Shown: piece after piece, positions 8,798-49,886 of the stretch
Position numbering within the stretch: position 1 is the stretch's first letter
Layout of the letters: each line of letters starts with the position of its first letter
NCBI GenBank assembly: GCA_950295325.1
Contig: OX485809.1
Location: 41,137,081-41,201,080, forward strand
Length of the DNA: 64,000 nucleotides
Reading direction: 5' to 3'
Origin: Polytrichum commune
Lineage: Eukaryota > Streptophyta > Polytrichopsida > Polytrichales > Polytrichaceae
The notes under the pieces: model-generated
Told to the model about the DNA's origin: nothing
The model's database searches: none
Seen by the model: the letters and a program-made list of their open reading frames with translations, nothing else
Position numbers and translations under genes: made by a program

Positions 8798-9292
8798 GGG
8801 GCAGTTTACACTATGGACCATGAAGTCGTCCCACGGCCGTCTAAGCGATGTGATTGGACGTTGAAGTCGTCCCGGGACGACTTGGGTTTACACCAAGGAA
8901 AAAATGGCAGAGTGACCACAGAGGTTGAGGTCCACAAATTTGTTTTTTTAAGCCTACTCTATCCACTGCCATGGTCCAACGGGTTTTCCGTTGGGACAAG
9001 AAAAAGAGGTGGTCTAGGAAAAATAGCAAGGGCCCATGTCAGAAAAATGCCGTTTTAATGATTTTTTTGGATTTTTTAATGATCTTTTTTCCAACTTAGT
9101 TAATGACTCCACTTTTTGGTGCATGGTCATTCTTCATGGTCCACATTCGGTTTACACCTAGTGAAGGGCCCACGAACCATGAAAACTAATATTTTAGTAA
9201 CTCGGACCATGGAAGTCGTCCCATGAAGTCGTCCCACGCAAAATAGGCCTCTTACGTGGGACGACTTCATGGTCCATAGTGTAAACCGCCCC
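8798..9292. mobile_element. PIF/Harbinger (Tourist-like) MITE, 495 bp
   Basis: Near-perfect inverted termini of about 38 bp begin GGGGCAGTTTACACTATGG at the left and GGGGCGGTTTACACTATGG at the right, read inward. They are flanked by TTA on both sides (8,795-8,797 and 9,293-9,295). A TTA duplication and GGGG..GTTT-type ends are diagnostic of PIF/Harbinger. The motif GAAGTCGTCCC occurs repeatedly near both ends. No transposase is encoded. An older copy is at 36,972-37,530. Confidence 0.88.
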
Positions 9293-10152: not shown

Positions 10153-10920
10153 TTAGGGAATGGGGACATGTGTTTGTTTGTTTTCTAGGTTTCTTTTGTT
10201 GAGAATAATGTATGTGAGGTAATTGATGGCATTTTGGTGGATATTTTTCATGAGGGTTTTGATGGCTAGTTTTGGGATTTTAAGGTGGGTGAGCTTGTTG
10301 ATGGAGTGTTTGTGTATGGCTCCTCTGACTCCGGCTGTGATGGTGATGAGTGGGTTAGTTTTCCATCCGTTGTTTTGTATGGTGTTTACTAGTGGGTCGT
10401 ATTTAGTGTGTTTGTGTGTGATGGCTTGGTCGGGGAATCTGTCATGATAGTATGTGAATTCGATGAATTGGGTTGTGATTGTGGGGGAAGGTGTAATTGG
10501 GGTTGGTGTGTGGTTTGGGGCTCCTATGAGACATAGTATGTCGGGTCGGAGTTTGGCTAGGCATAAGCATGGTGGTTGCGGGCATGTACATCTAAGGAGC
10601 CAATGTGGAATTGTTTTGTCCGGTGACCTATTGTTATTGATGCATGCATTGGTTAGTGTGTAGTATCGGGTGTTTTTGTTTGCTTGCAGGGTCTGGTTGA
10701 TGAGGTGCACTGCTTTGGGGTGCCGAGCGATTCTTAGACCTTTTAAGTATGGGTGTTTGCATGTAGATAGTAGGTGTGGCCACGTGTCTCTGTCATTGAG
10801 GTGGCATAGTGTACAGTTGGGATTGTGGTGTGTAAGGGGCCAAAATATGGTTTTTCTATGGTTACCCATGTATTGTGCATATCTAAATGTTAATGTTTGT
10901 GTGATTTGGGCATTTGTCAC
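10153..10920 (-). pseudogene. LINE C-terminal domain: zinc knuckle plus restriction-like endonuclease motif
   Basis: The frame holds a C-x2-C..H-x4-C knuckle (CTLCHLNDRDTWPHLLSTC) followed by an RH-containing helix, as in RLE-type LINEs of the R2 group. Next comes a CTCPQPPCLC cluster (C-x-C-x4-C-x-C), then RPDIL and IEFTYYHDRF. RPD and IEFT look like the PD and E of a PD-(D/E)XK nuclease; a K-rich helix and GW..NPLITITAGVRGAIH follow. A second, diverged copy of the same domain lies on the plus strand at 13,330-13,803. The domain assignment is by motif order, not by a profile search. Confidence 0.6.
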
Positions 10921-10989
10921 GGTTTTGTCTTTCCAGAAGTGGTTGGAGAGCTTTTGGTGTATTTGGGTGTTCGAGAGCCATTTGTCTAC

Positions 10990-11691
10990 TTATGGGAATT
11001 TGGCTTTGGCCATCGCCGTTTCTCGTGTTTGGTGTTCTTTGGTTATGAATGTGTGGAGATTACGTATGGCTCCGTCGTGCGTGGCTGACGGGCAACTTGC
11101 AAGCCAATAGGGGGTGGGGTGTGTTGTGTGTATACGTGGGGTTTTGGTTGGTTTCTCTTGGGATGTTCCCTCATTGGCTAGGCTATCGGCTATCTCATTC
11201 CCAGTAATTCCGGCGTGAGCACGTACTTCATGTATATGTATGGTGTGTGGGGTCCAATATATTTGGCGTACTATTGTTGCTATTAGCAGTTTGTCCGGGT
11301 GATGGTGTTGTGATGTTGGGTGTTGGATGTGATTATTAATTAAAAATATGCTATTTAGGCTATATGTGAATATGTGTATGTCCTGTTGGGGGGATTTGAT
11401 GTTTTTGATAACAATGAATATTGCGTTAAGTTCGGCTCTTAGTATGTTTTGATATCCTGGCAGTCGTTCGGCTATTCGGGTGTTATTATTAGGGCTATAT
11501 ACTCCCGAGCCTGCTGTATTACCCTCTATATTACCTTCTGAGTTTTTGGTGGGTGGTATAAATGACCCATCCATGTAGTAGCATTGTTGTGGGTGGTATT
11601 TGAGGGGGTGGATGTAATAGTATTTGTTTGGTATGGGTGTTGGGGGTGTGTATGTTGGGGGCTTCCTTCCATGTTTTGGAGAGTTTGACAT
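10990..11691 (-). pseudogene. LINE RNase H domain, catalytic residue lost
   Basis: Motifs in order are YYMDGSFIPP (first Asp), RAELNAIFIVI (Glu), IFTYSLNSIFLI (normally TDSL; the third acidic residue is Tyr here) and VRAHAGITGNEIADSLAN (His and final Asp). Spacing is that of retroelement RNase H, which removes the RNA strand after cDNA synthesis. The Asp-to-Tyr change and the frame breaks on both sides mark an inactive copy. Confidence 0.75.
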
Positions 11692-11866
11692 GGTAATTTA
11701 TGGGAGTGGGTTGGATGGGGTGTGTGTCAATGTGTATGTTGAGTTTGGTTCTTAGGACATTTTGGAGTTCGCTCGGGGTCTGTAGGGTTCTTGTAAGTGT
11801 AGTTTGGTTGTGTATGCATATTATGGAGGTTATGGATGGTTCCACATAGCTGTAGTATTTGGGCCA

Positions 11867-13318
11867 TTATGGTGTCGGAGCATAGAGTATGGTATGTGGT
11901 GGGATGTTGGTGATTGTATGTATGTATGCGTTTGTCGTGATTGGGAGTTGTTGTGACGTCCAATCTCTGTGGTTGAGTATTAGGAGGGTGATGGTGTTTA
12001 TGTCTTCTTTGGCTGCCATTCGTGCCCAGTGGATGGCTTCTAGGGGCGTGTTGTGGTCTGTGGGGTACGCTAGACCTATTCCTGTCCATCTAGAGGATTT
12101 TGCGTGTCCCATGGAGCCAAATATTATGTCTCTGGTATTTGGTGAGTTGTATTGTGTGAGTTGGATAGGACAAGTGAGCGGGGAGGAGTAGTATGAGTGT
12201 GTGATTTGGAAGGATTCTATTAGTAGTTTGGTGATGGCTAGGTTTAGTGTGTGGTGGTTATTGCAAGGTTGTATAGTCTTAGGTTTCTTCTTGGGGAGTA
12301 TAGTGATGTATCTTTGTATGAGCCACAATACTTCGGTTTCAAACTTTTGTGGAGGGGGTTGTAGGAAGGTTGTTAGATGTTGGAGTTTGTTATGGGAGTA
12401 TTGGTTCCATAGCCATTGTAGTCTTTCGGTTGTGATGGTAGCCATGTAGTACCCGTTTTGGTCAAAAATGTGAGATTCAGAGTCTTGTATTTGTATGGTT
12501 GGGGCGGTAGTATGGATGTCTCTGTCCGGGTTCCTTTCTTGTGTGGATATTTTGAGGTTGGTGATTTTAAGTGGGGGGTGTATGAATTTGTTGTCTTTGG
12601 TTTGTGTGAGGTTGAGGTATTTATCAAAGGTTTGTAGGGTTTTATGTTTTAAGGTTCTCATATGGTGTTGTGTTATGAGGAGGTTATGATCCAGTAGTAT
12701 GTTATTTGGGTGGGTGAGGTCCTCTTCTGAGCGCCATTGTTGTGTGAAGCCTTGTGCGGTATGCCATTGGCAGAGGTATGTTCTTTTGATGGCTTTTGCT
12801 CCCCATCTGTCTTTTCTAGTGGTAGTTTTTTCTTTAGTGATGTGTTGGATTGTTTGTCCTAGTGCATGTTGTGGTAGATCGTTCGGGTTTTGTTCAATGA
12901 TTGGGGGTGTGTGTAGTGTTACTTGTATGTGGTGTCTATGGGGGATGAGGGGGGGGGGTGGGGGAAATAGTGAATGGGCCTGTTGTAGAGTTGCTTTGAT
13001 GATTTTAGGCACATGTTTGTGTGTGGTACGGAATTCTTCCGGAGTCAATATGGTTTTAGTTTCTATATTTTGGATTTGTTGTAGGGTGGTGATACCGTAT
13101 GTGTATAGTTTGTTGAGATATTGTTGGGATTTTGTTTTGGCGATGTCCGTGAGGTTGTTGTATGCTGGGTTGGATCTCCATACTTGTTTGAGTGGGGTAA
13201 TTTTTATGGGGAATGCTCGGTTCGTAGTGGTGGCATGGATTTCGTATTCCCGTTTGAATAAGTATAGTGTTCTGGCAATGGGATCTCCTCTGAAAAATCC
13301 CGATGCTACACTCTTATG
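11867..13318 (-). pseudogene. LINE polyprotein fragment between RT and RNase H
   Basis: A long open frame (about 480 codons), rich in Thr, His, Gln and Pro because of the A/C bias. It shows no YADD or other RT motif and no catalytic signature I can name. The segment TGIGLAYPTDHNTPLEAIHW near its C-terminus looks like a folded domain. It is continuous in composition with the RNase H part, so it is assigned to the same element. Overlapping frames at 11,531-12,089 indicate frameshifts before the RNase H region. Confidence 0.5.
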
Positions 13319-13329
13319 AGCGCAGGTGC

Positions 13330-13803
13330 CTTTAATGACAACCCCCAAGAAAACACTGTCCCTAACTGGCTTTTACCCTGTACATGTGGAACCCAAAGAT
13401 GCCATTGTAATTCTCGGTTTAGACCTGACATTCTTTACGTTAAAGGGTTACCATATCAAAATGAACCCCCCACAAATATAGACCAAACACTTACCATACA
13501 ATTCATTGAATTTACATACTGTAATGACAGATTCTCACCAGAAACACTAGAAGCCAAAGCCAACAAATACAAACCCCTGATAGAAAACATTGCCGCCCTA
13601 GCTAGGCTGGAAAATCGATCCGCTCATTGTTATAACAGCCGGTGCCAGAGCCGCAACACACATCCCATCAATGAAAATACTTGAAGACAAATTTAAACTG
13701 CCTATGCCAGCCATCCGCAATACCTTCAAAAACATCAATACTATAGCCATACAATACGCTATGTCCATCCTCCTCCACGGCGGCCGGGGATTCGTGGCAC
13801 TCA
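13330..13803 (+). pseudogene. Second LINE C-terminal fragment (RLE-like), opposite orientation
   Basis: The plus-strand frame reads PNWLLPCTCGTQRCHC..FRPDIL..IQFIEFTYCNDRF, the same C-x-C..C-x-C/RPD/IEFT domain as at 10,153-10,920 but clearly diverged, so it comes from a different family member. A frameshift near 13,605 moves the homologous GW..PLIVITAGARAATH part to another frame. It begins head-to-head with the 5'-truncated minus-strand copy. It ends at a 23-bp sequence that recurs inverted at 16,477-16,499. Confidence 0.6.
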
Positions 13804-38038: not shown

Positions 38039-41000
38039 GATACACTCTAAACTTCGTAGTATCACACTTGTGGCAACCAAAGTGCATGTGATATTGTGGA
38101 GTTTTGTAGTGTTAACATGGATGCGTGATGCTATAGAATCAGTGTAGCATGTGACATTATGGAATAACACAAAGGAGATGTGAGGATAATTTGAATTCGT
38201 TCTCCCGTCACCTACGTTAGTGTGGTCCACTCCACTTGGCCTTCCCGGGCAATGTCGCGGACGCATGCACCAACATTCAACAAGTGACATAAGATGAAGA
38301 AGAAGAATAAGAATAAGAAGGTGACACTCCACATGTTGACACGGGGAGTGCTATCTTATGAGCGGTGAGCGATGAGCGGTAACTTATGAGCAGTGAGGAA
38401 GATGAAAATTTTGGTAATAGGGCCACCAATATCCTATAACCGTGGAATTGTGGCCTTAAAAATGATGATTTTAGGGTTTAGTAATAAGAGGGTTGAGAAG
38501 GATAAACAACATGAAGTCCAAAAATTTATTCATCAGTAGTAGCACTAGACATGAAACTATCTTTTGCCTCGTCATCTATATATATTCGAGCACCTTTGCA
38601 TTGCGAATTGATTTTTGGAACTATAGCAAGATTCTTCATTTGGATCCGAATCTTCGAGATTCAACATTGCAATTGCAACATTCTCGGCATATGATGGGAG
38701 ACGCGGGCTACGGCTTGGACTTCGTAGGAATTGTCTATGTGCCCAAAACGGGAGACATGTCCTCTTTCCAATCGTATTCCTGAAATCAAATCGATGAAAC
38801 ATGTAAATAATGTGAAGAAATAAAAATGAACCAATGAATTGAATGAAACGAATGAATTGAATAAAAATTTATTGTATTAAAACTTACTCACACTCAAATT
38901 CAAGCATCTCCTCGTCCGAGAGGTTATCATATTCTTTTGTGAGATCTTGTATATTCTCCTTAGATGACCCCTCTTTCAAAACGTTTTCCAAAAGCGGTTT
39001 CAATATGTGCTCAAACATGTCATTATCACCCTCAAATGCAAGAAGATGTCTGCCACATGCGCGTGTTGCTAGGATAGAAGCTCCAGTGGAACATGTCAAA
39101 TCAACAACGCGTCCATTCGATGGTGTAACAATTCAATAAGATCTTGAAAAAAACGCGGCGATTTTTTATATGGCCCCCTCCAAGGTCTTCCCGATTTTTG
39201 AAGAAACATGTTTTTTTCATCCACAAAATTGAAAAGTAAGTTTTTGCTTTTCAATCCAGTGCCAAAAAAATGGATTTTGGTTGTCTTGTGGATTTTGTGG
39301 TAGTAAAATCCCTTACCAAGATATGAGCCATAAATGCCGGAGTCTACAAAAAATGTAAATTGTGTTAAAATTATATACAATGCAAATAACACCAAAATAA
39401 TTAAATAGAAACAATTGTGATGTGTTATACTTACGGTGTAGGTTGGAGACTCCGGATCCTTGAACACCATGTACGAATTGAGGCAAATAAAAGCCCTAAG
39501 AACTTTCATGTTGCCGTTGTGTAAGGTTGAATTCAAAACCTTCTTGGTTTGCATATCAATAGCAGAAAATACTATGAGGACGCCATCATCAGACAAGATG
39601 GACTTGTACAAGGACATTGTTGCAACCATCCAGTTCTTGTCATATTTATTCCAAAGAGGAATTTTAGCAGGTCTATTGGAGAGGTTGAAGTCAAGACCGT
39701 CGGGAAATTGCAGAAAAATCAAGTCAACGGCAAATGGAGTCGGACTTCCCATGACATGAAATTCGCGATTGTCTTTGAACTGAAATACCACAACATATCA
39801 CAATATAAGACACAAAATAAAATCCAAATGAAAGTAAGAACATTACAGAAAATACCAAAACAATAATACTTACGTTTTCAAGAAATGTCCGCCATTGGAT
39901 CCACTCAGGAGGGCCTACTTCAACCCCTTCAGACTTGTTCTTGATAGCAGTAGATCGAGCAAAAGAGAGCGTGAGAAAGTTCTTCAGTATGAATAACTCT
40001 TTTCTCAAAACATTCGTTGGCGCATGATGAATAGCGTCATAGGTGCTCGAGTAATGGAATTCCAATACATCGCACTCTGACTTTGAACTTTCACCTCGAA
40101 ATGGATTCTTATCCAAATCATTGGAAAGAACAAGCAATTCTTCATGTTGTGACATTTCCGATTGATCTTGTATTTTGGTTTCAGGAACATGTTTCCTCTT
40201 ACGACGTTTTGTCTCTTTTGGTTCTGGCTCTCTAAGTTTAAGCTGCATAATTTGTGCTTGCAAAATTGCAATATCACGAGGATCCATATTTTTAGCATCA
40301 TTTATCTGACGGATTGTCTTCTCACTTGACGGACATGCATCCTTAGGACAATCAAGATACCAACCACAATCCTCATAGTGTAGGAGCGACCAATCCAAAC
40401 AAATCTCAGTAGTGAACATGCATGAATATCCTGTACTAGTGTCACGCCAATTTGGGAAAAAATGAGGTTCCCCTATAACGCATTTATGTGGAATCAAAAC
40501 ATATCGAAAATACCTACACACAAAAATATTGTAAGTCAAATATTCTATGACAATTTGACAAAATGAAATCAAAAAAATCAAAAAAACAATAAGATTAGGT
40601 TGTACCTGTATAATACACGTTTCATAGCAAGATCAATATTAGGTTGCTCATCCCAACCATTGTGTATTTTAACTTTTCCGCTTTGGAATTCACGATAGAA
40701 TATTGAATTGAAAGCCGCAAACTTCCAGGTTTGGATATACTCGGAGAGAGTAGGCACATCTGCAGGCAACTGAAGAGGAGATGAAAGAATACTTTGAAGC
40801 TTTTCGATAGCCTTTTTTTTCCAACTGTGCCCAATATGTAGACTTTGATAACCAATCATCAAGTGCAGAATTAAAGAGGGGCGATTTCGGGAAATGCAAT
40901 GCATCTTTGTCAAATCTATTGCCATTCCAAAGCTTGAGCCATCCAACTTTGACTTCTGCATCCACATTACTGACAGCAACACGATGAAGTTTCTCTTGTA

Positions 41001-42597
41001 GCATTTCAGGCACCGAAAATGAACCCCAATGGTGCTTAACTTCTTGAAGGAAAGCAGAGGTAAGGTTGATATCGGCAATCGCTAGTTGTTTCGTCAAACT
41101 AGAAGATAACATTGCACGTTTTTTGTTGACAGCTGCGGACATTGCTTTTGAAACTCCGTCTGATGTCCGTTCAAGAGGATGAGTTTCATTGTACTGGTTG
41201 AGAGCAATATCGCTAGCCTCAGCAAGTTCTTGCTGAAAAATCAAACAAAAGTCAATATTTATAAGTTCATATAGATGTAATGTAAAATGAAGGTGAATAA
41301 ACATAAGGCACATATTAACAATGGTAGAAGAACTTACACTGTACATGTAATCTTAAAAAATTGGTCGTGTCAAAGAATACCAAGTTTCGACGGACTTCTC
41401 CTCACATCGTTTATAACTCTTTAGATCCAGTTGCTTTCTGAAGGAAGTCAAAGGCATGGTGCCAATACTTTGCATCCGATATAAAGTATGCACTAAATTG
41501 GTGGATACGTGAGAATTTTTGGTTGAACTAAAAGAAACATTAAATTGATTAGATTCATGATGATATAATTTGGAAAACAAAATATAAACTAGAAATAAGT
41601 GTAAAAAAATAGGTAAGAACATTACTTGTTGATGTCATGCATAGCAGTCAACAACTTTGGAATGTCGTCAGGCTCGGGCGCCAAAATGATAGAATCCACA
41701 AAGACATGACGTTCATAATCTTCGGTATATACGTGGTCAATATAAATTTTCCAAGCAAGAAATCTGTGATTTCCATCTCATACAGAAAACATCTTGTTTT
41801 TGTATGACGTCAATGACAAATCTGTATCCAATTGAGATTCAAACAGGGCATTGGCTTGAGCCCAATTTGGGCTCCAAGATGCGCGAACCTCATCATCCAC
41901 GAATTGAAAGTTTCCCTTAGAATCGGTGGCCGATATATAAAACACACGGTCACCATCACGATAACCATTGAAAAAATCAGCCTCCAATTTAGTAATGTCA
42001 CCATTCAAAGCAGGACGCACAATCGGCATAGGAACCATGTGACATAAGGGTACACGCAAGCGAGCATTAGGTCCAGCACGGATTGAAGAAATTATGGAAG
42101 TAGATTTGACCTTTCGTTTGTTCGTAAGCTCCCACACTTTCTCTTGATAAGTTTTATTGTCACCATCATTATCTTCATCCGAGTCAAAATCATCGAGGAA
42201 TTCATTAATTTTTTTCTTTTTCTTATTATGAAGATTTGACGATATGTCCTGATGATGATGAACTTGTTGAAATTGACGATCTTGAGTTGAATGCATTGTG
42301 GAATCATCATCAGTAGAAATAGGAGTCGTTCTTTCCAAATCCATTGATTGGTCCTAAAACAAATGAAATAAGTTTCATAAATATTTCAAAACAAGTAGCA
42401 ACACATTAGCAATAACATTACAAAAACAACAACAATAACAACAGAATACCACGAACACAAGGAAGAATGACAAAAATTATTCTAGACACAGCCATTTGCA
42501 CCTTTAAATATTGTACGATTAGGGTGGCCGCTCACCCCAAAACTACAAGGCCAGACCCTGTGCGTCCAACTACAGGTCTAACAAAGTTGGACGCGAG

Positions 42598-42907
42598 GTT
42601 TGGGTCGTTCGACCCAAACCATGCTCATAGTTTGGGTGGAATGACCCAAACTAGGCACACAGTTTGGATCGAACGACCCAAACTAGGCACACAGTTTGGG
42701 TCGAACGATCCAAACCATGCTCAGAGTTTGGGTCGTTCGACCCAAACTAGGTAGACAGTTTGGGTCGATCGATCCAAACTCTGAGCATGGTTTGGATCGA
42801 TCGACCCAAACCATGCTCACAGTTTGGGTCGTTCGACCCAAACTAGGCACACAGTTTGGGTCGTTCGACCCAAACTAGGCACACAGTTTGGGTCGAACGA
42901 CCCAAAC
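42598..42907. repeat. Array of ten 22-bp palindromes, exact 32-bp period
   Basis: Palindromes start at 42,598 and every 32 bp to 42,886. Each is the half-site GTTTGGGTCG (some copies GTTTGGATCG or GTTTGGGTGG), a 2-bp centre (TT, AA, AT), and the complementary half CGACCCAAAC. The 10-bp spacers fall into two kinds, CATGCTCA(C/G/T)A and TAGGCACACA, and one is reversed. The array is not CRISPR: repeats are full palindromes and spacers are near-identical. Two more copies are at 47,318-47,371. Confidence 0.92.
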
Positions 42908-43120
42908 TGTCCGCAATTTACGCCTGATTATGCGCGATTTCCCAGTCACTATGAAAGTGCAAACAAACCTTGTACTGCACCTGTAGATGAGAGAGTTTGC
43001 AGCGATGAGCTCAGGTTCGACGGAGGAGAGAAAAAAGACTGAATGCTTTGGGGTTGTGGCAATTTATACTACTAATCCCTGGAGCCATATTTAGCGTGGC
43101 TCTTCGTGGCCCCGCATAGC

Positions 43121-43253
43121 CGCTAGAAAGTTGCCATCGCAGACCCTATGCGTTAACGCACAGGGTCTACTTGCCCAACTTTGCGAAGCCTCTAGCTAGG
43201 CAAGTAGACCCTGTGCGTTAACGCACAGGGTCTGCGCTGGCAACTTTCTAGCC
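43121..43253. repeat. Composite hairpin with nested GTTAAC palindromes
   Basis: The left arm starts CTAGAAAGTTGCCATCGCAG and contains AGACCCTATGCGTTAACGCA. The right arm is its near-complement, ending CTGGCAACTTTCTAG. Arms are about 54 bp. Each arm itself contains a 28-bp palindrome centred on GTTAAC. Three further TGCGTTA(A/G)CGCA palindromes follow to 43,320. Confidence 0.88.
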
Positions 43254-43740
43254 ACTATGCGTTAGCGCATACACCCTGTGCGTTAGCGCATAGACCCTGT
43301 GCGTTAACGCACAGGGCCGAGACGTGAATTTTTTTTTTTTTTTTTTTGCCAAAACTTGTAAAATCTGGAAAAAATGCTAATGGGGTAAAAAAAAACAAAA
43401 ATATGCTATATTATCTAAATTTCCGTAGCTACAAATTCTTCTCATATTTTGTTTTGGTTTGAAATGATTTTCTTTTCTCATTCTTCTATCTATTTCCTTG
43501 TTTTGGGCCACCTCGTAGATTTTGGGTTTCGGGGCAAAAAAAAATTTATGTTGTTTTGTGTCATTTCCTAGCTCCTATAACGTATTGCATGAGTACTTGA
43601 GTAGTCATATTTCTCATTTCTTGCATTCTAACCTCGTTTTCAATAGTTTTTTTGCTCCTAGGTTTTGAACATCGATTTAAATTCATACAATAGATATTTG
43701 TTTTAATTTTAGGCTCTCCTAGTCGTTTTACCTTCCAACT

Positions 43741-44175
43741 TTTGGCCTTCCTAAATTGCTCTTACAAACCCTGTGGGTTAACGCACAGGGTTTCTCCTCC
43801 CAACTTTGGCCTTCCTAAGTTGCTCTTACAAACCCTGTGCGTTAACACACAGAGTTTCGCCTCCCAACTTTGGCCTTACTAAGTTGCGCTTACAAACCCT
43901 ATGCGTCAAAGCACAGGGTTTCTTCTCCCAACTTTGGTCTTCCTAAATTGCTCTTACAAACCCTGTGCGGTAACGCACATGGTTTCGCCTTCCAACTTTT
44001 TGCCTCCTAAGTTGCTCTTATAAATCCTCTGCGTTCTCCTCCTGATTTCTAGCCTTCCTAAATTTCTGTTATATACCATGTGCATTAACGTATAGGGTTT
44101 CTCTTCTTTAATTTATAACCTCTATAAATTGCTACTACATGACATGTGAGTGAACGTACAAGGTTCTCTGTCCTA
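43741..44175. repeat. ~64-bp tandem array with GTTAAC palindromes
   Basis: Units start at 43,741, 43,805, 43,869, 43,933 and 43,997, then decay. Each has TTTGGCCTTCCTAA(A/G)TTGC, CTTACAAACCCTGTGCGTTA and the complementary ACGCACAGGGTTT. The period is twice that of the 32-bp array. Degeneration increases toward the gene's exon 1. Confidence 0.88.
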
Positions 44176-44506
44176 ACTTACAACTTATGCACTATCAAAT
44201 TATGTGAACGTTGAACTGACTTACCTTTTTGTTTGTCGTCTTCTTTGAACCCGTCTTCAATTCGGACTCTGATATACGATCGTCTACATCTTCTTTGTTC
44301 TTTGCACCTTCATCATCCTCCATCGCATCAAAATCCAATGTCTTCACAGTTTCTTCTACCGTACTCAACAAGTTTCTTTTCCCTTTTTTTTTTGCGTCCT
44401 TCTTTCCCACACTGAGTCTGAACCTTTTTTTCTCGGAAGTGAAATACAAAGCTTTCCTACGTCTTGCCTTCGGCCTCACGGGCGTTCTCTTTATATCGTC
44501 CACCAT

Positions 44507-45069
44507 CGTTGGTGTCTATGATATGTTTTTTATCAGGTACTATCATTTATTCTTCCAATGTATCTATCTCACAAAATCCGGCGTATATTACGATCATATG
44601 TTGTAATTGGCGTTCAATGAACGAGATATTTCGACGCGTTTGTCATTATGTGTTTATTTTTGTTATATCCGCCAAAATTTTCTGACACCTACTTTGTTCT
44701 ATTCATAATGATCAATAATTTGTTTTTCCAACCAATTTTAATTCTTTCTACATCTGCGTCAGTCCACACATATATATTTTTAATTTCTACCAATACTTTT
44801 AGTATTTGACGCCGTTTTGTGTATATCTTGCTCGTAAATAGTCTCTGACTATTATTGTATTATGGTCATTTCTGTATTATTAGATGCTATGTATCATACG
44901 CTTTCATTTCCATCCATTATTGTATCACACGTTTTCATTTCCATTCATTTCCTCACACAACTCTATACAAAAACAACATTCACCCCATATTTTTGTGATG
45001 TGTTGTTCATATGTTCTTTTGATTTTCTATGGCTACCATTAGATCTCATGGATCTTTGTTCCCTTCATT
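44507..45069. promoter_or_regulatory. Divergent intergenic region between the two transposon genes
   Basis: An AT-rich spacer of about 560 bp between the start codons of the minus-strand ParB/methyltransferase gene and the plus-strand transposase gene. It presumably holds both promoters. I see no specific conserved box and no copy of the palindromes here. Confidence 0.4.
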
Positions 45070-48000
45070 TTGCCACTCCAAGATGATGGTCATGTGAGTG
45101 TTTCAGAGGATTTACTTAGTTTGAGATTCAACCTCCAGATAAGAACCATGTATTTAGAGCATGAGATGTACTCTGCAGATAGAGAGGTGTATGAAACGAT
45201 TTTGGTTCCAAAAAATAGAACTGATGTTGGTTTTATGTGGATCTTAGGACCTGGTTCATTTAGGGTGATAGGATTTTTTGAGTCTCAGATGCAAGCTTCA
45301 ACTGTCATTTTGACAAACGAATCCGGTACATCCACAGTTCAAATTTCTTCTATCACACCTGTTAAGGTGAAACCCCTTGATGATAGTTGTTTGTGCTATC
45401 AGATTCAGAAGATGACATTTGTGCATCTGTTAATCTTTCAAACACATCGCCATTTCCATTTAGAAGTGTTCATTCTACTCCTTCCCAACTTCCTATACAT
45501 GTAGCCAAATCCCCTTGCGGTCTTATGTACAAGAAGATGGTTTCCCCAAATCTCACCTTCTCAACGTCCTCCACTACACCCTTCACCTTCATCTATAGGG
45601 TTGACTATGGTTGATGCCTTGAAGCTGATAAAGTCAAGAAAAAGATCAAAGTCCGATCTTGCATCCATTGATTTTGACAGTATAGATGTTCGTGAAGTCA
45701 AGACTTACCATCTTCTTTTAATGGTGATGTTTTATTTCTCTTGCCTCCTGTGGCACTCAAAGCTCCAAGTACGTATGGTCGCTCAATGGACGGCATGGAC
45801 AAGATGTGCGACAGTCACCCTTGGTGCACCACCAAAACCACCAATATCCAAAATGATTTTGGACTGTCCTTCCGGCGTTCTACTTGTGCTGGTCATCTCC
45901 AATGTCATAATGACTACTGTGATTACATAAATTGCAACGGGGGCCTCCGGAACAACACTGAATGGGCCGGTTCAACTCCTATCCCATTTGCTGTGGGTGT
46001 TGTTCCCCCTACTAAGTCCACTGTCGAGTGTAAGGTATGTCGTTCCACACCTGTGTGCATTGCTTTGTGTAATGCTCGAATCATATACATCCACTCCACA
46101 TCCGTTGGAATGTCCAGGGCTTGCATTCATCTTGGTGTACATGATCACCCTGTGGCCAATGGCACATGCCGTGAATCATTGGACATGGCATACGAATGCG
46201 TTGCAAATGAAGTATTGAAAACACCCACAGCAAAAAATTCAGCCATAGTTATGGCGGCGAGTAAACAATTCTTGGCCGATTACCTTCTCAAATCTCCCGC
46301 AAATGTCGAAGGCCATCACTTGGTTGGTTCATCCCTAGAGGTCGTGATGGACAAATTCAGCACTCTTGCCTCTCCAAATTGTCGTAACTTTGTATCTGGA
46401 TCAAAGCGTTTTTTGCGTAGTGGAATGGGAACTATGGATAGTATTATGGCGCTCAAAGACCACTCTGCTTTCAAATTCGTCCATGGTAGTCGGTTCCCAG
46501 GGCAGTCAAAGGACAAAGTGTTTGTTTTCAAGATGTCTATAGACCTTCCATGTAGTGGTGTGGAGCTTGTGAAGAGGATGCAAGTCGGTGGGGATATGGA
46601 GAATTCATGGATTATGTTTGAGCATGTCAAATGTTTGAAGGACTGGACGACCATGGCTTGCCATGTGTACGACAGTCGATACTGTAAAGTGTTGACTATT
46701 GCCTGTTGTGACATGCAATCTGAAGATGGTGCAGCACAAATTCTCTTTTGGGAAAATTTGAATGCTGTCATGGCAGATAATGATGTACCAAACGTAAACT
46801 TCAAAGGGTTTATGGCTGATAGTACTCAAGCTAATTGGAATGCGGTGAGGGCAATTTACGGGGATGGTGATCCAAGTCTACCCATGGTTGCATGTGAGCG
46901 TACATGTCTTTTCCATTGGTCCGCAAGCTTGGATAAGGTGACCCAAAAGTATATCAAACCATCCTTGCAATTTCAACACAAACAAATATGCAAGGATTAC
47001 AAAGACGCGAAAACAATGGACGACGCTGAGACCAAGTACCATGTGATTCGTTCTTGGTGGTTGTCTTCTGGAGCTGCCTCCGAAGAAGGCATCCTTGGCC
47101 TTTCAGAGTGGTTGGGATTTTGGCACTTTCGTTATAGACAATGGGGTGGCCATATGCTACTTGTAAGTACATATCAAACTTCATTAGTCAATGTAATATA
47201 TCCTATGTTTTTCTTATCTTTGTCTTTCTGTGTTGTTCATAGGATATGACAATAAAAGAGCGTGCGGGAATGCCAATATGCAACCTTGCAGAGACTGTAC
47301 ACAACAAACAACAAACAGTTTGGGTCGTTCGACCCAAACCTTGTATGCAGTTTGGGTCGAACGACCCAAACCTAGATATATAATCTATCTTATGTTTGTC
47401 TTATCCTTATATTTGTATGTTGTTCATAGGATATGACAATAAAAGAGCGTGCGGAAATGCCAACATGCAACCTTGCAGAGACTGTACACAACAAATGGCT
47501 CCAACAGTCCGGCAACAAAATTACTTGTTTATATGAAGCTACAGTGGACGACATGATCCGTGCCTTCATGCAAATTGCAAATTACCGGACATGGTTGAAA
47601 GGGGGGTCTGATGGTAAAGGTCATGATTCGACCTCCTTGAAACTCAAAGCAGCTGCCAGGTGTGGAGATCCAAAAATGTTGGCCGATGCCATGAAGTCTT
47701 ATCCAGGGGCAGAAGACGTCAACACGAGAGATTGTGCATTGGAAGGGTCAGAGCTCTTTGGTTCCACCAAACGCAAACTCAACCTACCACCAGGTGCTGA
47801 TTGTGGCTCTCATCGACCCGACAAAGTGAACTATTCCATTCCTCGTTCCAACACCCGAGCAACTCGTCAACGCATAGAGGAATCGTTGAGTTTTGCAATT
47901 CACGGTGTGGCTCATACTACATCTGTGTTAGAGACTGATTGTCTTGCTTCTAAGTGGCACATTGCAAGATTGCCACCCAACTCTGCCAAACGTTGTTGGG

Positions 48001-48797
48001 CACTGCAGGCCATTACAGGGACTATGTGCAATGCCAAAGTCGGGACTGGGAAACATGGCACACCTGCTTCAACATACAAAGGGCTCAGGAAGGAATTTCG
48101 CTCTCCCAACAATGTGGAGTATGAATTTTGGTTTTGTCATGACGACATCAAACGTTGTGTGAGTGGCAGTAAGAAGAAATATGTGTTGGATTGGCCTATA
48201 GTACCCAACACGTGGCCAGTGAAGATAGGTACCAATCTATCGAGAGAGGAGGTTTTGGCACTTGAAGATGCTGGATTTCAACTACAGCAGAGGGAGGCAT
48301 TGTCTCCTCGTCGTAGGCTTTCAACAATCGCAACTCTTCCCATCCCTTGCTCGCATTTTTCTATGCCACCAAACCCAAACGCCCACCCTACATTCATATT
48401 TGGGAAGACAGTGCGTCGTAATCCAACAGCACCTCTGGCGGATCACAAAAACAAATGGGAGAGCGCCGGACTCATGGAAGGTTACTATGTGGTTGGGGTC
48501 ACTGCCATTCCATATCCGGGCTTTGGAGTGATAATCAACATTGTCTCCAAGCAGGATATCACCTACCATGTCACAATTGGCGATATCCCGCATTGCACAT
48601 GTCCAGATTTCACGAAAATGTCCTCTCATGCATTGGGAAAGAAAGGAAAATGGGTGTATTGTAAACATCTTTATTATGTGTTTAGATTTTTGTGCAAGGT
48701 GGATTACGAGAGTGACAAGTTCATTCATGCACCTACATATACCTATAATGAGGTCATGCGACTACTTGAACTTGCTGGTATTTTAGAATGTGAGTAG
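45070..48797 (+). CDS. MULE-type transposase with WRKY/GCM-FLYWCH-like and SWIM zinc fingers
   Basis: MULE transposases cut and insert the element using an RNase H-fold DDE core. Two large exons are clear: one to 47,162 (frame open from about 45,675; donor CTT|GTAAGT) and 47,430-48,797 (acceptor CATAG|GATATG, phase 0). An N-terminal part (45,070-45,660) is spread over three frames, so there are about three frameshifts. In the first exon CKVCRSTPVC...ACIHLGVHDHPV is a WRKY/GCM/FLYWCH-like finger. The core shows CDMQSEDGAAQILFWENLN, then FKGFMADSTQANWNAVRAIY (second Asp), CLFHW (C-x2-H) and the GLSEWLGFWHFRYRQWGGH region. The second exon ends with a SWIM finger, IPHCTCPDF..WVYCKHLYYV (C-x-C..C-x-H). 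It may still encode a nearly complete transposase if the N-terminal breaks are sequence errors. Confidence 0.78.
47198..47495 (+). repeat. 187-bp tandem duplication at a transposase splice acceptor, with two palindromes between
   Basis: The block TTGTTCATAGGATATGACAA to GAGACTGTACACAACAAA occurs twice (border bases at 47,243 and 47,430). The second copy is followed by open reading frame and is taken as the exon start. The first runs into two copies of the GTTTGGGTCG palindrome (47,318 and 47,350, again 32 bp apart) and then a stop. Confidence 0.85.
47318..47371. repeat. Two further copies of the 32-bp-period palindrome
   Basis: Both have half-site GTTTGGGTCG and its complement, with centres TT and AA and the spacer CTTGTATGCA. 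They lie in the intron of the transposase gene, 4.4 kb from the main array. Confidence 0.9.
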
Positions 48798-49014
48798 TAT
48801 TGCAAGTGTTCTATTAAGTAACATATATTTGAATGTCAATAAATGACATGTTTTGGTTTGGATTATTATAATAAAAATTAGCAGTGGACTGAAAGTATTT
48901 CAGATAATTCAGTAACTTTATTTTTATTTAGATTGTGACCCAACTATGTGTGGTTTGATTGATTCACACGGATAAATAATAACACATTTCTAAAAATAAA
49001 AAATAATTAGGAAG

Positions 49015-49205
49015 ATTCTACGCACATCTGCGTAGTAACGTCTTCTTGGTATCCGCCTATAGATTATTTCTGCTTTATCACTAGCTCAATTTGGGATAGC
49101 ACCAGTCAATGTAACCAACCGGATTCGAACCCGGGTTGATCCAGACCTAATACCAGTCTCTTACACAACTCGCATCCACAGGCGGATGTCTCAAAACCTA
49201 GTAGC
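49015..49205 (-). mobile_element. tRNA-related SINE-like sequence
   Basis: The minus strand has GGGTTCGAATCC, a perfect pol III B box, about 40 bp after an A-box-like GGATGCGAGTTGTG. Clustered C/G-rich sequence continues to about 49,015 and then a T-rich tail. It lies inside the transposon, downstream of the transposase gene. It does not fold as a full tRNA with an anticodon arm I can draw, so a SINE is preferred. Target duplication not identified. Confidence 0.45.
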
Positions 49206-49299
49206 TACCTACATATTCATTATTTCTAATATCTAATTTTCTTTCTTTTGTAGATTCAGGGCCTTTATTCAACCTGTGGGCAGTTTGAGTGGCTCACAA

Positions 49300-49470
49300 T
49301 TATGGCACCGACATATATGTATAATGCTGTTATGCACCTACTTGAATTTGCTGGTGTTGTAGAATGTGAGTAGTTGTACAAGTGCTAGTTGTAGCTATAT
49401 GTATAAGGATGTCAATAAATGACAAGTATTGGTTTGAATTATTATAATAAAAATCAACAATGGATTGAAA
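49300..49470 (+). repeat. Partial duplication of the transposase 3' end
   Basis: The last coding bases and 3' flank of the transposase (48,735-48,895, including CTACTTGAACTTGCTGGT, GAATGTGAGTAG, AATGTCAATAAATGACA and ATTATTATAATAAAAAT) recur about 575 bp downstream with about 80% similarity. The duplicate probably derives from a relative of the element. It separates the SINE-like sequence from the right terminus. Confidence 0.8.
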
Positions 49471-49886
49471 GTGTTCTAAATGATTTATGGAAATAGGGCC
49501 CTTTCACTTGTGCTTCATTTAAAATATTGGCAATTTACAATTGAAAATATGCAATTAATTTGTCAAAAATTTGGTTGTAAACCCTAAACCCGTGTGTCTT
49601 TACTAAATTTGGATTCATTGCTCATGTGTTACTGCTCACCGCTCACCCTCACTGCTCATCGCTCATAAGATAGCTTCCCTCATGTTGACACATGGCGCAA
49701 TGTGAGGGTGTGGGTTGACTTCTTGGATGGTTTGCATTAATGACAAAATTCGTGATATAAGGGAGAGAAATGTGACAATAAGGAGTGACATTCTAACTAT
49801 GAAGATCCGTTCCCTAGGGTTTCGGGATATTAGAGAGTGTGTAACATTATGGAGGTTGATATTACGGAGTTTAGGTTGTATTGTCT

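Follow-up and report, generated by a model that had tools for sequence, protein, structure and literature searches.

Several described systems bear on what a transposon might do with a gene beyond its transposase. A review of Mutator-like elements (MULEs) lists mudrB, mutB, vanB and vanC as such extra genes, and in the portion of its text available here the term methyltransferase does not occur (PMC6446971). The VANC systems of the Arabidopsis VANDAL/Hiun MULEs are the most relevant to the present work. In the available portions of two papers, VANC is an extra gene of a MULE-type element, and short motifs are amplified in tandem within the introns and the remaining non-coding sequence of the same element, the arrays differing between copies (PMC5735166, PMC10398659); in VANDAL21, introns and upstream regions hold the VANC-binding motifs as such arrays (PMC5735166). 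Here, we describe a DNA transposon of Polytrichum commune with a similar anatomy. It occupies positions 38343-49680 (11,338 bp) of a stretch of 64,000 nucleotides (assembly GCA_950295325.1, contig OX485809.1, positions 41,137,081 to 41,201,080, forward strand), which is called the window throughout. The parallel to VANC is one of element anatomy: a MULE-like element has a second gene, under selection, and motif arrays, placed in an intron of that gene and close to the transposase, that vary by copy. Two differences are that the motifs here are long perfect palindromes and that the protein has a methylase-derived domain.

The second gene also recalls systems outside the MULEs. Fusions of a ParB domain to a DNA methylase have been predicted for a Wolbachia prophage (available portion of PMC3089641) and described for Bacillus cereus Bce_0392, in which the ParB part nicks (available portion of PMC5512222). 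The fusions compared here (phage locus L059, Wolbachia phage WO locus L055 and 80 IMG/VR loci like L059) share with the Polytrichum gene an N-terminal domain followed by N6_N4_Mtase, with the same motif order. Unlike them, the Polytrichum protein has no recognisable ParB domain, has lost the catalytic DPPY and extends over ~1,090 residues in seven exons; L059 has 422 residues with a Pfam ParB_N domain, and L055 has 401 residues with DPPY (by eye). The N4-methylcytosine (4mC) system of bdelloid rotifers is a reported case of bacterial-type amino-methylation in a eukaryote; in the portion available 4mC is reported to mark host DNA there, whereas the domain described here is transposon-borne and looks catalytically dead (PMC8885841). 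A survey of eukaryotic N6-methyladenine (6mA) methylases centres on MT-A70 enzymes, and neither ParB nor N6_N4 appears as a term in the main text as available (PMC12695648). No transposon of this kind was found described in the literature searched, a weak negative in that subscription journals were mostly uncovered.

A sequence-only reading of the window had proposed a multi-exon minus-strand gene at 38884..44506 inside an 11.3-kb DNA transposon, and this proposal is borne out. Both ends of the transposon are present, between exact 11-bp copies of CATGTTGACAC, and GCTATCTTATGAGC is common to the two ends; the same terminal letters, ...GATAGCACTCCCC, recur with differing flanks in 15 of 20 other loci. 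The element holds two divergent genes, a transposase-like gene on the plus strand and the gene for the ~1,090-residue methylase-type protein on the minus strand. The latter runs from an ATG at 44506 to a stop at 38884-38886 in seven exons, with GT-AG at each intron border. The motifs quoted in the sequence-only reading are present as well: exon 2 contains VPLCHMVPMPIVRP and DGNHRFLAWK, and exon 7 contains VVDLTCSTGASILATRACGR followed by HLLAFEGD. The element borders and the exons of this second gene are as follows, in window positions.

38332..38342, no strand: left target-site duplication CATGTTGACAC, exact repeat of 49681-49691
38343..38400, plus strand: left terminal inverted repeat, GGGGAGTGCTATCTTATGAGC..., inner end approximate
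38884..39343, minus strand: exon 7, motif X-like KP region and S-adenosylmethionine (SAM)-binding motif VVDLTCSTGAS; 2 bases fewer than in copy L031
39435..39779, minus strand: exon 6, motif IV position reading VDLIFLQFPDG (DPPY lost), then DDGVLIVF
39874..40513, minus strand: exon 5, Cys-containing stretch and charged linker before the methylase-like domain; dN/dS (ratio of non-synonymous to synonymous substitution rates) 0.068 between subfamilies
40606..41232, minus strand: exon 4, middle region, fold not recognised; one base more than in L031; dN/dS 0.073 between subfamilies
41338..41527, minus strand: exon 3
41626..42353, minus strand: exon 2, conserved domain with VPLC...DGNHR; TGA before DGNHR in the window copy
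44225..44506, minus strand: exon 1, containing the ATG and encoding a charged N-terminus of low complexity
49622..49680, minus strand: right terminal inverted repeat, inner end approximate
49681..49691, no strand: right target-site duplication CATGTTGACAC, exact repeat of 38332-38342

A profile search, which the sequence-only reading had suggested for both halves of a supposed ParB-methylase fusion, recovered the methylase half: the C-terminal 240 residues of the open copy L033 match PF01555 (N6_N4_Mtase) with 22.7 bits and E 1e-4, co-linear over 30-218 of 221 positions, a score below the curated cut-off of 26.7. The whole L033 protein gives 16.1 bits (E 0.011), and the exon frames of the window copy itself give no PF01555 match in the Pfam search. 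The PHROG family phrog_67 (DNA methyltransferase) is matched at 2.7e-8 by this C-terminus of L033 and at 1.7e-5 by the window version. In profile-profile comparison with 22 phage methylases, exon 7 taken together with L051, a relative discussed below, scored 96.7% (E 4.2e-10, 75 columns around the SAM motif), while exon 6 alone gave 0.4%, and so the support from this method comes from exon 7 with L051. PDB sequences returned nothing significant, the best E values being 1.4 for L033 and 0.088 for L051. The motif order IV, X, I of beta-class methylases is seen in the succession of exon 6 and exon 7, in the single frame of L051 and in the co-linear Pfam match; the sequence-only reading, which had placed the SAM motif after the catalytic region, was right on this point. 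These comparisons support a predicted N6_N4_Mtase-type domain, of bacterial kind, at the C-terminus, and with it the proposal that a protein of methylase type rides on a cut-and-paste element in a eukaryote.

Whether that domain still methylates DNA is another matter. Catalysis by these methylases requires the acid or amide and the aromatic residue of motif IV, normally [DNS]PP[YFW]. Motifs and selection were scored in 34 copies (the window, 13 loci and 20 loci from two genome searches, duplicates removed). The tetrapeptide position reads LQF in all 34 and LQFP in 30, the other four being divergent and decayed, a loss that had escaped the sequence-only reading. In the SAM loop GxG, Ser takes the place of the initial Gly. 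CSTG is found in 30 of the 32 copies with exon 7, the exceptions being L045 (CSIG) and L047 (YSTG). The domain shares with PF01555 and phrog_67 the co-linear profile match, the KP region and the SAM-binding region, but differs from them in the catalytic tetrapeptide and in one SAM-loop glycine. Considering that LQF stands at the DPPY position in every copy, the domain is probably no longer a catalytic methylase.

The same genome holds a second methylase family, which keeps DIPY at the catalytic position. Its representative L051 (C1:9661850-9662950) is 30% identical to L033 over exon 7, exceeds the PF01555 cut-off with 33.5 bits, and has VDLIIVDIPYG as well as a SAM motif, DLSVGTGAS. Three copies among the matches listed lie in 577-residue open frames, and loci of the family besides L051 include C5:16865277 and C4:44111695. 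No close relative of L051 was found in viral contigs, nor in phages up to E=1, and structure prediction for L051 alone was unusable, with a predicted local distance difference test (pLDDT) score of 35. A third group consists of 460-residue frames (seven rows among the matches listed, for example C3:47762922), 30-31% identical to the L051 family.

The other half of the supposed fusion fared less well. With the whole protein, the exon-2-3 domain or 12 aligned copies as query, Pfam yielded no ParB family up to E=10, and the NCBIfam and PHROG searches with the gene's protein likewise yielded none. A PDB profile search with the exon-2 domain found no ParB (best match ribosomal eL24, at 0.76), and tblastn against phages and plasmids gave no ParB among the matches listed (20 of 26 phage records) and unrelated rows at E 5-9. 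Profile-profile alignment (hhalign) of exon 2 with 23 phage ParB domains scored 0.2%, with a shallow query alignment (effective number ~1.2) that leaves distant homology conceivable. An AlphaFold2 model of the exon-2 domain was unusable (pLDDT 40, from 12 rows of 81-94% identity). As a positive control, the phage fusion L059 yielded both ParB_N and N6_N4_Mtase. What speaks for ParB is the motif and its location ahead of a methylase. On its own the motif does not exceed chance: the loose pattern GxxR..A [G-x(1,2)-R-x(2,3)-A] occurs in 21 of the 23 phage ParB domains and also in 9.1% of 5,000 shuffles of the protein. A stricter pattern, drawn up with the sequence in view, is absent from all 5,000 shuffles but equally from all 23 phage ParB domains. 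The sequence-only reading had named intact relatives without conserved DGNHR and STG as a refutation. The STG of the SAM loop held up; DGNHR is exact in only 13 of the 19 copies read there, with DGNYK in the open-frame copy L031, DGNYR in L034 and L038, DRNHR in L035, DRNHN in L047 and NDNY in L048. Weak matches of exon 2 to NTR2 (0.0053), phrog_2967 (0.0028) and phrog_9020 (0.011) were set aside as chance or low complexity, and a Lipocalin_5 match (0.011, in two of 12 copies) was taken as chance level. A ParB domain in exon 2 is thus not supported by profile, sequence or structure comparisons, and of the proposed fusion gene only the methylase half stands.

Across the whole genome, PF02195 matches solely on the small contigs C10, C12 and C23. 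ParB_N and N6_N4_Mtase lie together in one 501-residue frame on C12 and in one 722-residue frame on C10; all three contigs are presumably of bacterial or phage origin and would carry genuine fusions of ParB to a methylase.

The transposon-borne gene belongs to a large family. In the genome as searched (64 contigs totalling 407.8 Mb, with seven that measure 42-78 Mb), there were at least 244 matches to the methylase part, at least 150 to exon 2 and at least 152 to exon 4, counts that are lower bounds in that only the best candidates were scored. Of the 150 exon-2 matches listed, 25 form a distant group at 44-51% identity, and in 21 of these the frame has no internal stop; at C2:67027235, one member of the group is followed, 0.36 kb on and in the same direction, by an exon-4 relative (36%). 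Exon 2 is clearly a widespread module, judging from these matches. Within 10 kb, this distant group and the 460-residue methylase group share no place among the matches listed. The window copy of the gene is itself broken, by the TGA directly before DGNHR and, relative to L031, by the additional base in exon 4 and the two missing bases in exon 7, but the family is not. Among 20 aligned copies (the window and 19 loci, L046 omitted), exons 2-7 are open to the stop in three, L031, L033 and L040. Splice sites around exons 2-7 are canonical in L033, and one site is altered in each of L031 and L040. At L046, exon-2-like pieces (29-53% identical) run in the reverse direction to the methylase exons found there, and the locus is, by its sequence, a rearranged or nested copy.

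The 34 copies fall into subfamilies A (n=16) and B (n=13) and a divergent set (n=5); stop-containing pieces of L047, L035 and L044 were omitted from the protein alignments. Between the majority sequences of A and B, over 923 codons with exon 3 not included, there are 83.5 synonymous and 39.5 non-synonymous differences, a dN/dS of 0.115, on which ground a pseudogene reading was rejected. By exon, the ratio is 0.126 in exon 2 (0.11 for codons 91-242), 0.073 in exon 4 and 0.068 in exon 5. At the sequence level, this shows that the protein, taken in its entirety, is under purifying selection and would be maintained in source lineages, the methylase core being less well tested. This selection, together with exon-2 relatives in more than 100 genome places, argues that the gene is more than a chance open frame. 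Synonymous divergence between A and B falls along the gene, in exon order, from 0.31 and 0.24 to 0.12, 0.014 and 0.022, which suggests recombination between the subfamilies near the 3' end.

Intron 1 of the gene holds arrays of two perfect palindromes, here called P1 and P2, which had been missed in the sequence-only reading and are not reported previously. Their positions in the window are as follows.

42598..42908, no strand: P2 array in intron 1, 10 copies of GTTTGGGTCGNNCGACCCAAAC with a 32-bp period and 0-2 mismatches
43143..43316, no strand: first P1 group in intron 1, CCCTGTGCGTTAACGCACAGGG
43731..44035, no strand: 64-bp tandem array in intron 1, 4.8 units, with four P1 sites at 1-3 mismatches, partly decayed
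47318..47371, no strand: two further P2 palindromes, between the two transposase frames

The P1 core, TGTGCGTTAACGCACA, is centred on GTTAAC and has 694 exact sites in the genome, against 0 for the reversed control. With the centre left free (TGTGCGNNNNCGCACA) there are 852 sites (control 4), so that the TTAA centre is mostly kept. P1 is present in 15 of 15 sequences among the matches listed (21 sequences in all); allowing up to 4 substitutions, P1-like sites number 198 in 19 of 21 sequences and P2-like sites 95 in 13 of 21, conservation at these sites being partly a matter of how they were chosen. The first eight P1 clusters listed are all on contig C1, and six of them have a methylase match within 8 kb. 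Another, at 6.11 Mb, is close to matches of exon 2 and exon 4; for the eighth, at 461.6 kb, there is none among the matches listed. The 64-bp P1 unit is repeated 19.7 times in L039 compared with 4.8 times in the window. Hairpin-driven covariation in the P1 core was considered and rejected, as changes on one arm are independent of those on the other; immediately flanking the core there is a pair that covaries. In intron 1 of two copies, P1 is surrounded by a perfect 56-bp palindrome (L040, 3596-3651; L037, 2692-2747; gene-oriented loci), and the outer sequences of the two differ.

P2, GTTTGGGTCGNNCGACCCAAAC, is 22 bp long and occurs at 9,231 genome sites with the N2 spacing (reversed control 0), whereas spacings N3-N9 (N0 and N1 not included) give 2 sites in all. 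Arm positions are 84-100% conserved and the two central bases vary (commonest letter in 41 of 95 and 55 of 95 sites). Of the first 100 P2 sites listed, 22 could be assigned to P1 elements, being either next to a P1 cluster or, as the transposase-side pair, within ~6 kb of one. P2-rich clusters of ~10 kb with no exact P1 among the matches listed were noted on C1 at 616-626 kb, 1180-1191 kb and 2115-2126 kb. From its distribution, P2 is probably shared with other transposon families that use the same 22-bp site.

How might the palindromes and the altered methylase be related? The reading that we favour, with a probability of roughly 0.35, is that the second gene encodes a VANC-like, sequence-specific, anti-silencing protein built on a dead methylase. 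The second protein of the MULE-like element (or a partner) would bind the P1 and P2 palindromes as a dimer, the bound protein would coat the non-coding parts of its own element, and the coating would keep host silencing off, in the manner of the VANC proteins of Arabidopsis VANDAL elements; the methylase fold would no longer be an enzyme but have been retained as a scaffold that binds DNA or SAM. The fixed spacing and free centre of P2 are the pattern to be expected of a site read by a dimer. A scaffold role is preferred over methylation because DPPY is lost. Anti-silencing, which the sequence-only reading had also raised as an escape from silencing, is favoured on another ground: the arrayed palindromes, which lie in non-coding parts of their own element, resemble the arrays of VANC-binding sites (available portion of PMC5735166). 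If this is correct, the element would be a second, independent MULE-type transposon whose self-defence relies on a sequence-specific protein together with motif arrays that co-evolve, the protein in this case being built on a bacterial methylase domain, and it would provide a direct test of a non-catalytic methylase fold acting on chromatin. The fixed-spacing palindrome P2, in its 9,231 exact copies, is a ready bait for finding its reader.

Several observations weigh against this anti-silencing role. Among the first 100 P2 sites listed, the remaining 78 are on other parts of C1, for which the matches listed include no exact P1; they form three clusters of ~10 kb and one lone site, at periods of ~78, 64, 57 and 35/36 bp, and the reader of P2 may instead be a protein shared among elements, or a host protein. 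P2 is absent from L034, L037, L038 and L045-L049, and P1 from L045 and L046. In exons 6 and 7, the methylase core, no more than 3 synonymous and 5 non-synonymous changes separate A from B, which is not enough to judge selection; relative to the divergent decayed copies, and computed against the merged A and B group, dN/dS is 0.23-0.52 in exon 6 (five copies) and 0.29-0.76 in exon 7 (four copies). Single copies also drift, with dN/dS of 0.33-0.70 in recent A pairs and 0.51-0.85 in divergent pairs, values expected of decay after insertion.

Other explanations assign the gene a different task. Its product might assist in transposition, a role also assumed for maize mudrB, with the palindromes as cis sites for a transposition complex or for replication and not for chromatin. 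The second gene does adjoin and diverge from the transposase-like gene, P2 is also found between the transposase frames, and mudrB is apparently needed for integration (available portion of PMC6446971). The arrays, however, are internal and intronic, not subterminal, and the end of L039 carries a different repeat, CTCACCGCTCATAA, unlike the intronic arrays; we regard this explanation as possible but rather unlikely. Alternatively, the protein could be an active DNA methylase that places marks on its own transposon, such as methylated adenine or N4-cytosine within the palindromes, with LQFP as an unusual active site. The co-linear profile match, the profile-profile support for the SAM-binding part, the DIPY of the sister family and the symmetry of both palindromes, like that of many methylase targets (P1 with GTTAAC at its centre), all fit this idea, which the sequence-only reading had also entertained. 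With motif IV altered at both its first and its last residue in each of the 34 copies, and with Ser in the SAM loop, the idea is weakened, and we think it unlikely.

It is about equally doubtful that the arrays are selfish satellite repeats without a protein partner, the gene having some unrelated function. Tandem arrays do expand by slippage, unit number varies between L039 and the window, and changes in the P1 core are independent on the two arms; yet the same 20 fixed bases around a free centre of fixed length recur at periods of 32, 35/36, 57, 64 and 78 bp, and such P2 arrays recur also where there is no P1 among the matches listed. Least probable of all, and in our view very unlikely, is a true phage-like ParB-methylase fusion, in which a ParB-type nucleotide-gated clamp or nickase would load at the palindromes, as at parS, and spread, with the methylase as its tail. 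A DGxHR-type motif N-terminal to a methylase, as in L059 and Wolbachia phage WO, and palindromes of 16 bp would suit such a protein, but the ParB searches described above gave it no support, DGNHR is inconstant among the copies, and the two halves of the motif are ~50 residues further apart than in L059 (counted by hand). The anti-silencing protein on a dead methylase could also be part of something broader. Perhaps a bacterial-type amino-methylase was taken over by the transposons of this genome and split in two, one line still methylating (the DIPY family of L051, perhaps the third group) and the other, with a dead enzyme, reading palindromes and countering silencing; P2, apparently present in several element families, would then be a shared recognition code. 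This extension is speculative, and the odds are well against it.

The transposase-like gene, on which the classification of the element partly depends, is represented by two open frames.

45696..47249, plus strand: first part, transcribed away from the methylase-type gene; stop-to-stop, exon ends not fixed
47430..48797, plus strand: second part, with SWIM-like CxC...CxH (CTCPDF...YCKH)

In 15 of 20 loci, the N-terminal part of this transposase-like frame adjoins the second gene, upstream of it. The spliced frames match none of the Pfam transposase models, their sole match being DUF6208 at E 0.2. MULEs have target duplications of 8-11 bp, and the element combines an 11-bp duplication with terminal inverted repeats, both ends having been seen for the window copy only. 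We take CTCPDF...YCKH, recognised by eye, to be a SWIM-like zinc motif, and on the strength of this motif and the target duplication, membership in the MULEs is plausible.

Another repeat-like element lies at window positions 10153-13372, on the minus strand. It contains an RNase H frame (PF00075, 3.8e-13), and the adjoining frame matches PCIF1_WW at 5.5e-6 with 26.5 bits, short of the cut-off of 31.1. We take PCIF1_WW, from its name, to be the family of the cap adenine N6-methyltransferase PCIF1, and this region is possibly a second case of a methylase-type domain on a mobile element.

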